A stretch of 38,882 bases of DNA, from positions 1 through 38,882 of IMG/VR virus record IMGVR_UViG_3300010375_000584; one strand, given 5' to 3'. This DNA is from a virus. Below the pieces are notes generated by a model. It worked only from the letters and a program-made list of their open reading frames with translations, searched no databases and was not told the origin of the DNA. A program made the position numbers and the translations under genes. Positions 25,954-31,107 of this stretch are shown here, in pieces. Each line of letters begins with the position of its first letter. Position 1 is the first letter of the stretch.

Positions 25954-26211
25954 GTGACGACCATTGCCACACAACGATACACGCTGGACGAGGACGATAA
26001 TCCCGTTCAAGTCACTTACGACCCTGCCGATCCCGACCAGACCGCGGCGGCGATCGGCTACGATCCCACTAGCGGCGCGACGTTCAACACGCTCGCGCCG
26101 GCAGACGTCGCCACCGCCGTTACCAACGGCGCGACCGACGACGCGGCGGACGCGACCCAGATCGCGACCGACACGATGACAGAGGGTCTCGTTCCCTCGG
26201 GAGAAAGCTGA
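25954..26211 (+). CDS. Small acidic Thr/Ala-rich protein before the tube (85 aa)
   Basis: 85 residues from GTG 25954 with AGGAGG 7 bases upstream. Rich in Asp, Thr and Ala (VTYDPADPDQTAAAIGYDPT) with no clear domain. Its last base is the first base of the tube gene ATG. Function unknown, likely a small virion or assembly protein. Confidence 0.55.
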   Translation: MTTIATQRYTLDEDDNPVQVTYDPADPDQTAAAIGYDPTSGATFNTLAPADVATAVTNGATDDAADATQIATDTMTEGLVPSGES

Positions 26212-27131
26212 TGTCGAAGCTCACCAACCGCAAGGTTCTGCTGTCGCGCATCCAGCAGGCGGCCGGCACGCCGGCGAACCCGGGCGTGGCCGACGCCATG
26301 CTGGTATCGAACCTGTCCTACAAACCCGGCACCGCGAACATGATCAAGCGCGACCGCGCCTATCCCGACTTCACGCAATCGACGCAGGGCGTGGAGCCGG
26401 TGCACTCGGAGATCAGCTTCGACGTCGATCTTTCGGGCTCGGGCTCGCGCGGCGTGCCGCCGCTGTGGGGCGTGCACATGCGCGCGGCGGGCTGCGCGGA
26501 GTACGTGAAGGACGGCGCCTACACCAAATACGTCCCGGTCTCCACGGGCTTCGAGAAGCTCACCCACAAGTTCAACTGGGACGGCCTGGAGCAGGTCATC
26601 GCCGACAGCATGGCGACGATGAGCGTGAAGATGGATGCCGGCAAAGAGCCGATGCTCACCTTCTCCTACCAGGGCCTGTTCGCGCCGCAGACCGACACGG
26701 CGCTGGAGAACGTCGGCTCGCACCTGAAGAGCTTCATCGACCCTGAGACCGTCAACAAGTCGATGACGCAGTGCACGCTGCACAACAAGACCGTGGTGAT
26801 GAACAGCTTCCAGTTCGACCTGGGCAATACGCTGCTGTTCGCCGACAAGCCGGGCCGCATCGGCGTGGACATCACCGGCCGCGCCTGCACCGGCAAAATC
26901 CAGATCGAGGCCGACACCATCGCGCATGCCGACTGGGTCACGCGTTTCCGCAACAAGACGCTGAGCTCGCTCGGCATCCGGCACGGCAACAAGCGCGGCA
27001 ACCGCAATGTGTTCTTTTCGCAGCTGGTGCAGCTCGGCGAGCCGACGACAACGGATGTCAACGGCATCCTGCACTACGACATCCCGCTCTACTTCACCGG
27101 CACGACGCCGTTCTATCTGAAGGTGGCCTGA
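26211..27131 (+). CDS. Tail tube protein (siphovirus type)
   Basis: 306 residues. MSKLTNRKVLLSRIQQAAGT, then LSGSGSRGVPPLWGVHMRAA, GCAEYVKDGAYTKYVPVS and NGILHYDIPLYFTG resemble tail tube proteins of non-contractile transposable phages. The β-rich pattern fits the tube fold. No sheath gene is found next to it, which supports a siphovirus tail. The chaperone pair follows at once. Confidence 0.8.
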   Translation: MSKLTNRKVLLSRIQQAAGTPANPGVADAMLVSNLSYKPGTANMIKRDRAYPDFTQSTQGVEPVHSEISFDVDLSGSGSRGVPPLWGVHMRAAGCAEYVKDGAYTKYVPVSTGFEKLTHKFNWDGLEQVIADSMATMSVKMDAGKEPMLTFSYQGLFAPQTDTALENVGSHLKSFIDPETVNKSMTQCTLHNKTVVMNSFQFDLGNTLLFADKPGRIGVDITGRACTGKIQIEADTIAHADWVTRFRNKTLSSLGIRHGNKRGNRNVFFSQLVQLGEPTTTDVNGILHYDIPLYFTGTTPFYLKVA

Positions 27132-27520
27132 TGACCGCGAACAACACAGTCTCGTTCGTCTTCAAGGACACTCCCGGTGTCATCATCTGGCCCTGCAAGA
27201 TCAGCGTGCCGCTCGACGGCGGCGGCTTCCAGGAGCAGGAGCTCAAGGCGCGCTTCAAGGTGATCGACAACGACCGCTTCGAAGAGCTCGCCGGCACACC
27301 GGTCAGCCGCGCGATCGGCAGCACCGAAGGCGTGAAGAAGCAGGGCGATCGTCCGCTGCTGGAAGAAGTCCTCGTGGGCTTTGCCGACTTCAGGAACGCT
27401 GGCGGTACGGTTGTCGATGATGCGGTCGCAATCCCTGCGATGCTCGCGCTTCCCTACGCGGTCGCAGGCCTTGTGCGCGGCTACATGGAGATGGTCGGGC
27501 TGCGCGCAGCAAAAAACTGA
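27131..27520 (+). CDS. Tail assembly chaperone, upstream frame (lambda G-like)
   Basis: 129 residues, ATG 27131 sharing its A with the tube stop. The first part is β-rich (VSFVFKDTPGVIIWPCKISV), followed by helical segments. The last codons are GCA AAA AAC TGA, a canonical -1 slippery heptamer directly before the stop. In long-tailed phages the tail chaperone between tube and tape measure is made in a short and a frameshifted long form; this gene gives the short form. Confidence 0.8.
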   Translation: MTANNTVSFVFKDTPGVIIWPCKISVPLDGGGFQEQELKARFKVIDNDRFEELAGTPVSRAIGSTEGVKKQGDRPLLEEVLVGFADFRNAGGTVVDDAVAIPAMLALPYAVAGLVRGYMEMVGLRAAKN

Positions 27521-27564
27521 AGGCCGTCGCCCGCGCCCTGATGGGCGAAGGCGCGGACGACGGC
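27511..27564 (+). promoter_or_regulatory. Programmed -1 ribosomal frameshift signal
   Basis: Slippery heptamer A AAA AAC at 27511-27517, read AAA AAC in the zero frame and followed by TGA. After a five-base spacer (27518-27522), a stem of 27523-27537 with 27550-27564 has 14 of 15 Watson-Crick pairs (one C/A mismatch) around a 12-nt loop. This is the textbook layout of a -1 frameshift site. Slippage moves the ribosome into the frame of the next chaperone part, which is open from the heptamer on. Confidence 0.85.
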
Positions 27565-27921
27565 GGCGAACAGGTCTTCGAAGATCTCCGCGCCTTGGGC
27601 GTGTCCGAGGCGGAGATCGCACAGCTCAAGGCGGAACAGCAGCGCGATGCGCGATCGAACGTCATCGAGGTCGAGCCGGAGAACCGGGGCGCGGTGCGCA
27701 TCTTCCTGCGCGCCATGTCGCAATGGCGCGGCGAAGCGATCGTCGCCGGCCGCCATCTTCTCGTCATGCGCTCGGGTCTCGATTACACGGTGCTGCCTGC
27801 GATCGCACAGATCCTCAACGTCGAGCTCGACGAGCAGACCTTCGACGGCGTGCGCGTCATGGAAGCCGAGGCGCTCACCATCCACATCCGCCGTCAGGAA
27901 GAGGTTCTGCGCCGGCGCTGA
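27517..27921 (+). CDS. Tail assembly chaperone, frameshift extension (lambda T-like)
   Basis: The -1 frame is open from the heptamer, reading KK-LKAVARALMGEG, to TGA 27921. It adds 134 residues to the 129 of the upstream gene for a predicted fusion of 263. The separate ATG at 27541 would give 126 residues, but it lies within the stem-loop and lacks a ribosome site, so expression as a fusion is more likely. The C-terminal part includes FLRAMSQWRGEAIVAGRHLL and resembles DUF1799-type chaperones. The fusion helps load the tape measure and polymerise the tube. Confidence 0.78.
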   Translation: MKAVARALMGEGADDGGEQVFEDLRALGVSEAEIAQLKAEQQRDARSNVIEVEPENRGAVRIFLRAMSQWRGEAIVAGRHLLVMRSGLDYTVLPAIAQILNVELDEQTFDGVRVMEAEALTIHIRRQEEVLRRR

Positions 27922-27942: not shown

Positions 27943-30900
27943 ATGAGCGGCGCTGGTCTCGCCGTTCGTGCCGTCCTTACCATGGACAACACCGGTCTGG
28001 TCGGAGCCGCGGCCGAAGGCGTCACCTCGCTCGATGCGCTGAAAGATGCTGCGAAGCGGACGGGCGCTGCAGGCGTCGAGATGGGCGGCGGCATCGACGT
28101 CGCGAAGCAGGCAACAGAGGGGCTCGCGCGCGCGTCCGCGAGTGCAGCTGCGGTCACGCAAGCGACAGGCGTAGCCCGCAGACAAGAAGTCGATGGACTC
28201 GTTGCGCAGGCAGCTGCGGGCGCGAAGGCGTCGAAGGCCTTCGAAGCCATGTCGGCCGCGCAGAATGCTTACAAGTCCACCGTCACGCAGGCGGCGGCTG
28301 CGCTCAAGGCAGGCAGCATCGACCATCAGGCCTTCACTGCGATCGTCGCCGGCGCGACCGCAAAGCTCGCGCTTTCCCGCGCCGGTCTCAATGAGTTCGG
28401 CAAGGGTGCCGAAGAAGCCGAGGCGCACACCGAGCATCTCACGCACGAGGCGATGCACCTCGGCCGCGAGCTCGGCATCACGCGCGAACAGATGATGCTG
28501 TTCCGGGGTTCGTTCGGCGCGATCGGCGAGCTCGCGGAGCTGCTTGGACCAATCGGCCTGATTGCCGTCGGTCTCGCTGCCGTAGCCATCGCGGTGGCCG
28601 CATTCGCGGTGTCGACCGAGCAAGCCGAAGAGCGGTCTCGAAAGCTCGAAGCGGAGCTTGCCGGCATCGGACGCATGTCCGGCGTCACGGGTGCGCAAAT
28701 CACCCAGGCCGCGCACCAGACGGCATCCGCCACGGGCGAGTCGATCGCGACGACAGAGAAGTGGGCCGAGACCTACGCCAAAACCGGACGCATCGCGGGA
28801 CAGGTGCTGATCGGTCTGACGGCTATGACGAAGCGCTATGCCGATGCCACCGGCCAAAACGCCGAGCAGGCATCGGAGGATCTGGCGAAGTCTTTTGCCG
28901 ACCCGAAGAAGGGCGCGGAGGAGCTCAACGACAAGCTCGGCGCCCTCAACGCAACGCAGCTCACGCGCATCCACCAACTCGACGCCGAGGGCGACAAGGT
29001 CGGCGCGCAGAAAATTCTCTACGCCGCGCTCGACAAAGTACTCGACACGTCTGCCACGCATGTGCGGGGGCTCGCGGGTGCTTGGGACGCGGTCTGGACA
29101 GCCGCGAGCAACGCCTGGCATCAGCAGATGATTGCTGCAGGTGGTGGCACGCTGGCGGAGCAACTCGCGCAGGCGAAACAAGTCCTCGCCAACGATACGG
29201 CTGCGGCTGGCGCCGTTCCCGGAGGAACTTGGTACTGGCGCGCGCAGCTCGCCGCCGACAAGAAGGCGGTCGATGATCTCACCGCCGCGCTCGCAAAGAG
29301 CACCGCAGAGAGCAACAAGAACTCGGCCGCCGCCGCGGCTAATGCGAAGTCGGTGGCTGCGGATGCTGTTGCGCGCGAGGTCAATCCTGACGCGTTCAAG
29401 CTGGACGAATTGAAAGAGAAGCAGGCAAGGCTTTTCGCCGGCATCCACTCCGGGGCCAAAGACAGCGCCGAAACCCTCGGCAAGATGAAGGACGCCTACC
29501 AGGCGGTCACGGACGCGATCGGCCGAGTAACCGACGCCACCGGCAAGTACATCCCGCAGGCGACCCGTGATCATCAAATCGCGGTTCTCCAGGTCGCGGA
29601 GGCGAAGGCTAGGACCGCCGCAGAGAAGGGTGCGATCGAGACCAAGATCAAGCTCCTGCAGGCGGGCTCCAGTCTCATCACCAACCAGCAAGCATTGACG
29701 CAAGCACAGGACGCCGGCGCGATCGCGACAGCGAAGGCGAGCCATGCGGACGAGGAGAAGCGCAAAGCCATCGTCAACGAGATCGCCGATCTCGCCAAAT
29801 CGGTAGAAGCGGAGCGCCTGGAGGCCGTGACGGCTGTTCAGTCGGCCGATGCTGCCGGCCTGAGCGCACAGGCGCGAAAGAAGCTGAGCGATCAGCTCGA
29901 AGTCGAAAAGGGACTGTTGGTCTTTACCGCTCTGGAGAAGAAGGCAGAGAAGGAAGGCTTCGCAGACCTCATCCCCCTGATCGAGAAAGCTGCCGCCGCG
30001 TACAAAAAATACGGCGAACAGAAGAACGCTGCCAATGAAAAGGCGGCGGCTATCCAGGACGTGAAAGCTCAATACGCCCAGCTCTCAGGCGCGTTCGCCG
30101 ATGTGGGCAAACAACTGCGCGACGCACAACAAGATGCGCTCGACTGGAGAAACGGCACGATCGAAGCGCTCGGCGGCGTCGCGAACATCAGCGAGGAAGA
30201 GCTGTCGAGGATCAACGCGATCTTTGCCGACAAGATGGACAAGGCGCTGACGGACTCGCTTGAGAAAGCGCGGGATTGGTCGAGCGGCGTGCAGGCGGCC
30301 ATGAAGCAGATGGCCGACACCACGCAGAACCAGGCTGCGCGAGCCAAGGGTTACACCGAGGAGCTCAGCACCGGCTTCGAGGACCTCTTCGTCAACGCGG
30401 TCATGGACTCGAAGAATGCGCTCCAGGACTTCCTGCAGCTCTTCGAAAAGATGCTCCTGAAGATGATCTACGAGATCTATCTGGAGAAGCTTATGCAGCA
30501 GCTTGCCGCGAGCATCACGGGCGGGCTCGGCGATATCTTCGGCGGCGGTGGCTACGCGAGCTTCGGCGGGATGAGCGGTTATGGGAGCGGACCGCTATCT
30601 GGGGACTTCGGTGTGCCCAGCTTCTACATTCCGGGTTTGCATAGCGGCGGCATCGCGGGCCGCGAGTCCACGTTCACGCGCGCGATGCCGGTGTCGGCAT
30701 TCTCTGGCGCACCGCGCTATCACCAGGGTGTCGATCGCGTCGGCCGTCCCGGTGAAGTGCCCGCGATCCTGAAGGAGGGCGAAGGCGTCTTCACGCCGCG
30801 CCAGATGGACAACGCCAACGCGCTGATCGCGGCCGTGCTGTCGCGGCCGACCGTCGTGCAGCTGCCGGATCACATCGCGCGCGCGGCGAACAGCAACGAG

Positions 30901-31107
30901 CCGATGCAGGTGAAGGTGACCGTCCACAATCTCGACGGCCAGACGAGCCGCGCGCAGGCAAAGCCGGATGGCAATGGCGGGCTTAACGTCGACGTGATCG
31001 TCCAGCAGCTTGAGCAGCGCATGGCCGCCAACGTGCAGCAGGGCAAAGGTTCGCTGGTGAAGACGTTGCAGCAGACCTTCGGCCTCACGCGAAAGGTGGC
31101 GGGATGA
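27943..31107 (+). CDS. Tail tape measure protein
   Basis: 1054 residues, the longest gene here, directly after the chaperones. It is mostly Ala/Glu/Lys-rich helix, with a hydrophobic segment GPIGLIAVGLAAVAIAVAAF near residues 204-225 and a Gly/Ser/Tyr-rich stretch near 865-885 (GGGYASFGGMSGYGSGPLSG). The N-terminal third contains a prophage tail-length tape measure-like core (QLTRIHQLDAEGDKVGAQKI). It sets tail length and may help DNA cross the inner membrane. It overlaps the next gene by four bases. Confidence 0.9.
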   Translation: MSGAGLAVRAVLTMDNTGLVGAAAEGVTSLDALKDAAKRTGAAGVEMGGGIDVAKQATEGLARASASAAAVTQATGVARRQEVDGLVAQAAAGAKASKAFEAMSAAQNAYKSTVTQAAAALKAGSIDHQAFTAIVAGATAKLALSRAGLNEFGKGAEEAEAHTEHLTHEAMHLGRELGITREQMMLFRGSFGAIGELAELLGPIGLIAVGLAAVAIAVAAFAVSTEQAEERSRKLEAELAGIGRMSGVTGAQITQAAHQTASATGESIATTEKWAETYAKTGRIAGQVLIGLTAMTKRYADATGQNAEQASEDLAKSFADPKKGAEELNDKLGALNATQLTRIHQLDAEGDKVGAQKILYAALDKVLDTSATHVRGLAGAWDAVWTAASNAWHQQMIAAGGGTLAEQLAQAKQVLANDTAAAGAVPGGTWYWRAQLAADKKAVDDLTAALAKSTAESNKNSAAAAANAKSVAADAVAREVNPDAFKLDELKEKQARLFAGIHSGAKDSAETLGKMKDAYQAVTDAIGRVTDATGKYIPQATRDHQIAVLQVAEAKARTAAEKGAIETKIKLLQAGSSLITNQQALTQAQDAGAIATAKASHADEEKRKAIVNEIADLAKSVEAERLEAVTAVQSADAAGLSAQARKKLSDQLEVEKGLLVFTALEKKAEKEGFADLIPLIEKAAAAYKKYGEQKNAANEKAAAIQDVKAQYAQLSGAFADVGKQLRDAQQDALDWRNGTIEALGGVANISEEELSRINAIFADKMDKALTDSLEKARDWSSGVQAAMKQMADTTQNQAARAKGYTEELSTGFEDLFVNAVMDSKNALQDFLQLFEKMLLKMIYEIYLEKLMQQLAASITGGLGDIFGGGGYASFGGMSGYGSGPLSGDFGVPSFYIPGLHSGGIAGRESTFTRAMPVSAFSGAPRYHQGVDRVGRPGEVPAILKEGEGVFTPRQMDNANALIAAVLSRPTVVQLPDHIARAANSNEPMQVKVTVHNLDGQTSRAQAKPDGNGGLNVDVIVQQLEQRMAANVQQGKGSLVKTLQQTFGLTRKVAG

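Follow-up and report, generated by a model that had tools for sequence, protein, structure and literature searches.

A putative lambda G/GT-type −1 ribosomal frameshift signal in the tail-assembly chaperone gene of a Mu-like phage

The lambda tail assembly chaperones gpG and gpGT are related by a frameshift that is conserved in long-tailed phages (PMC5009743). Two overlapping open reading frames lying between the tail tube gene (26211–27131) and the tape measure gene (27943–31107) of a virus contig raise the question of whether they are two genes or a single chaperone gene whose second part is reached by a −1 shift. The window, that is, the whole 38.9-kb contig analyzed here (38,882 nt), encodes transposition proteins resembling MuA and MuB. 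Its head genes specify a Mu portal, a Mu-type minor head protein, a protease and a major head protein, and its tail is of the lambda type, including a J-like fibre protein. The window is, like RcapMu, a transposable phage of the Mu kind that carries a siphovirus tail. At the DNA level no similarity of the window to phage records was found.

The tail tube gene (plus strand, 306 aa) matches Pfam Phage_tube_2 (E 1.3e-8), and tblastn links it to proteins annotated as tail tube in RcWaterboi and Vibrio phage ZX4290. ORF1 (27131–27520, plus strand), whose ATG overlaps the TGA of the tail tube gene, would encode a gpG-like tail assembly chaperone of 129 aa. The −1 extension (27517–27921, plus strand; 134 codons and a stop) is gpT-like; it matches Pfam DUF1799 (E 1.8e-11) and PHROG 680 (E 7e-16), is homologous to the frameshift product of the phage T1 tape measure chaperone, and its 16 aligned homologues all match DUF1799. 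Downstream, the tape measure gene (plus strand, 1054 aa) matches Pfam TMP_2 (E 1.2e-23) and Tape_meas_lam_C. The window's own ORF1 protein gave no Pfam match at the limit applied and a weak one to PHROG 569; it is assigned to Phage_TAC_4, as a putative member, through its relatives, 20 of 23 aligned ORF1 homologues matching this family (best E 2.8e-34). As to an HK97-like TAC fold, the structure model of ORF1 (pLDDT 78) found no PDB match at E ≤ 0.001, and a profile search of PDB sequences returned no tail chaperone. The model of the DUF1799 extension (27511–27918) is confident (pLDDT 91); none of the solved structures matched it significantly, so its fold is apparently unsolved; altogether, searching the models of both domains against the PDB gave nothing usable. 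Regarding labels, PHROG 569 and 680, matched by the chaperone parts of the window (27131–27921), are named 'tail length tape measure protein', and the annotation of S-LBS1 ORF1 reads ABC transporter ATPase; in both cases the label seems to be mistaken.

The junction of the two frames was read directly. The heptamer A AAA AAC (27511–27517, plus strand) is in the X XXY YYZ register of ORF1, whose codons at the site are AAA (27512–27514), AAC (27515–27517) and TGA (27518–27520) in the context ...GCA GCA AAA AAC TGA..., the zero-frame product ending in AAKN. The stop adjoins the heptamer with no gap, and a 5-nt spacer, TGAAG (27518–27522), leads to a hairpin (27523–27564, plus strand) with a 15-position stem of 14 Watson-Crick pairs and one C-A mismatch. 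Its 5′ arm is GCCGTCGCCCGCGCC (27523–27537), its 12-nt loop CTGATGGGCGAA and its 3′ arm GGCGCGGACGACGGC (27550–27564); the computed RNA fold of the site gave an essentially identical hairpin. The −1 frame is open until the TGA at 27919–27921, resulting in a fusion of 129 + 134 = 263 aa. Heptamer, adjacent stop, spacer, stem with its mismatch and loop are thus, base for base, those of a preliminary description of this DNA, which had also given an open −1 frame and a fusion of about 263 aa.

Both strands of the window contain 84 X XXY YYZ heptamers, and the one at 27511 alone combines an upstream frame open for 60 codons or more with an adjoining stop and a −1 frame open for 80 codons or more. 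As for the hairpin, 0.15% of the plus-strand 50-nt windows reach −30.2 kcal/mol or lower, and the plus strand has two hairpins that form 14 or more pairs between arms of 15 nt, one of them being that of the frameshift site. A dnaX-like Shine-Dalgarno stimulator, sought about 10 nt upstream of the heptamer, was not found, nor was a phage tRNA able to change decoding; the Rfam search gave sub-threshold matches only. The fold of the window is by itself not decisive, because against a plain dinucleotide shuffle this GC-rich stretch has a z of only −1.86, and shuffling synonymous codons gives only −1.53 for the window's own stem. These values, together with the absence of a strong stem in some relatives, would suit an explanation in which the heptamer alone matters and the hairpin simply follows from GC-rich codon usage. 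The decisive evidence is hence the placement and conservation of the hairpin rather than its fold alone.

Searches with the tail tube and the extension retrieved RcapMu, RcWaterboi, Thiobacimonas phage P1, the Synechococcus phages S-LBS1, S-CBS1 and S-CBS3, a Vibrio phage, T1 and others, homologous junctions being present in RcapMu, T1, RcWaterboi, the three Synechococcus phages and the Vibrio phage. The junction is A AAA AAC or G GGA AAC in all these fetched relatives except Microcystis phage yong1, where the candidate heptamer is T TTT TTC, and in most of them the stop is the next codon. Scanning viral contigs with a tail-tube pattern found none. A first alignment was dropped as pattern-scan query for being too diverse; a three-sequence alignment yielded about 35 further loci, part of them picked by a KKL motif. 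Since KKL overlaps the heptamer, heptamer conservation is made to rest on sets independent of that pattern.

An unbiased sample was provided by 25 loci (L071–L095) chosen by the DUF1799 profile alone in two classes of genomes, 289 and 274 in number. A AAA AAC occurs at 20 of them, G GGA AAC at three and no recognisable site at two; none has A AAA AAG. The preliminary description had made its reading depend on the heptamer being kept in relatives, and 23 of the 25 loci carry one of the two forms with an open −1 frame, 19 of these 23 with an adjacent stop. Among 52 non-redundant sites the counts are 45 A AAA AAC, seven G GGA AAC and no A AAA AAG, and the zero-frame stop adjoins the heptamer in 42. 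The remark that A AAA AAC is the less common heptamer stems from E. coli constructs, which favour A AAA AAG (PMC5009743); it holds for shiftiness in those constructs, but not for the Phage_TAC_4/DUF1799 chaperone family, where by these counts A AAA AAC is the rule. Two loci deserve mention in their own right. At L015 (2700–3100) A AAA AAC is followed by TGA with AAAAAACTGA intact, and the −1 frame is broken soon after, which may reflect either a decayed copy or a sequencing error. At L077 (1341–1475) a 15-bp tandem repeat, GGAAAACTGCTTGCA, is present in nine copies just upstream of a DUF1799-like match, and no frameshift heptamer was found at this repeat locus.

The stem was analyzed at the 52 non-redundant junctions by setting the 50 nt that follow the heptamer against shuffled versions in which the −1 frame protein and the codon usage are preserved. 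Directly after the heptamer there is excess stability (mean z −1.36, p 1.3e-7), while there is little or none in the four 50-nt windows that come next in these ORFs (mean z −0.22, −0.19, −0.38 and −0.01), the −0.38 at offset 157 alone being nominally significant (p 0.015). Exchanging 5′ and 3′ halves among relatives costs on average 4.6 kcal/mol (own arms −21.4, swapped −16.8 kcal/mol; p 2.8e-7), whereas a control position shows no loss (p 0.62). The arms of the hairpin differ in sequence between relatives and yet keep their mutual pairing. The preliminary description had proposed covariation in the stem as a check; the arm swap takes its place as a test at group level, since the searches gave no close relative of the window with which pairs could be counted one by one. 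Stem strength varies, and a few relatives do not have a good stem (AUS531phi, z +1.98; ThpS-P1, z +0.34). With excess stability largely limited to the 50 nt after the heptamer across the family, and with swapping of arms destabilizing the stem, a hairpin produced merely by GC-rich codon usage is very unlikely.

The second ORF might instead be an independent gene starting at its own ATG, with the heptamer being incidental. An ATG-started ORF of 126 aa is indeed present (27541–27921), and the annotation of several relatives gives two genes. However, the ATG at 27541 sits inside the hairpin loop with no Shine-Dalgarno-like sequence at usable spacing, which makes an independent start there improbable. 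Moreover, the codons between the heptamer and this ATG are conserved as protein (KKLxAVARAL), and heptamer, adjacent stop and stem are kept across very distant phages. We regard two independent genes as extremely unlikely. The six-A run of the heptamer could also allow the fusion to be made by transcriptional slippage, with ribosomal slippage not needed. Six A is, however, a short run for productive slippage of bacterial RNA polymerase, and seven of the 52 relatives have GGGAAAC, which contains no such run; for these reasons slippage during transcription is improbable. In addition, a downstream stem conserved at similar distance is a feature of ribosomal shifting, and the probability left to the transcriptional explanation is practically negligible.

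Gene identity and order, register, adjacent stop, stem position and co-evolution of the arms agree, and they support a programmed −1 frameshift. The preliminary description, which had recognised a −1 signal in tail chaperone genes, is sustained by the gene order, by the Phage_TAC_4/DUF1799 relatives and by the conserved heptamer and stem. Lambda G/GT and the window have in common an overlapping ORF pair between tail tube and tape measure, and a −1 slip shortly before the first ORF ends that would give a fusion chaperone. The window differs in having A AAA AAC adjoining the stop, where lambda has G GGA AAG, in its clear hairpin and in its families, Phage_TAC_4 and DUF1799. The Mu-like Rhodobacter phages RcapMu (NC_016165) and RcWaterboi (MW677528) resemble the window in gene order, tail tube and DUF1799 extension, but their heptamer is G GGA AAC and their extension is only 25% identical. 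The T1 tape measure chaperone (AY216660) has A AAA AAC directly before the stop and a DUF1799-like extension (about 32% identity); unlike the window, T1 is not Mu-like and its stem is less stable in absolute terms. The prediction that annotation would miss the fusion fails for T1, deposited as a frameshift product with a joined CDS, and for RcapMu, whose record notes a 'potential -1 frameshift', but it is true of most other relatives, annotated as two ORFs. Comparable sites are published from other phage lineages: A AAA AAC adjoins the tail chaperone stop in gp12/gp13 of Acinetobacter phage Loki (PMC5313236), and AAAAAAC is the slippery site of gp93/gp94 of Caulobacter phage phiCbK, with GGGAAAC in Colossus (PMC3556154). 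A site of this kind has possibly also been published for Paenibacillus phage Dragolir (PMC6003738).

Given the signal that was observed, the open frames, the order of the genes, their protein families and the conserved heptamer and stem, the site is almost certainly, as judged from sequence, a −1 programmed ribosomal frameshift of the lambda G/GT type in the gene for the tail-assembly chaperone. The occurrence of the shift, its rate and the assembly roles of its products are inferred by reference to lambda G/GT (PMC5009743). In the proposed mechanism, the majority of ribosomes would terminate at the TGA at 27518 after translating ORF1, releasing the 129-aa chaperone ending in K-N. The hairpin, which starts at a distance of 5 nt from the heptamer, would hold up a minority; their tRNAs, paired with AAA and AAC, would re-pair one base back, on AAA AAA. 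Reading would then go on with CTG AAG GCC ..., giving the 263-aa chaperone with the DUF1799 tail. On the lambda model, the short form would serve to coat the tape measure protein; the long form, which is rare, would use its extension to recruit tail tube subunits.

The frameshift rate here could be low, because in E. coli constructs A AAA AAG shifts far more readily than A AAA AAC (PMC5009743). Wherever a heptamer was found across L071–L095 it is of the AAC type with the stop usually the next codon, and a fixed low-efficiency design is possible. Sites of the lineage with AAC as A-site codon span proteobacterial and cyanobacterial hosts. A tentative and rather unlikely extension of this idea is that in the Phage_TAC_4/DUF1799 lineage the AAC A-site codon and the mostly adjacent stop may constitute a fixed signal, in which the stop and the tRNA-Asn step would keep shifting at a set, low level, competition with termination being one conceivable means.

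The window site is a fresh example of a well-known class, and as such expected, textbook biology. The two ORFs can be annotated as a single frameshifted chaperone gene, and the comparison across relatives provides firm evidence for the stem. The family-wide combination of AAC A-site codon and adjacent stop poses a small, testable question on how low frameshift ratios are set.
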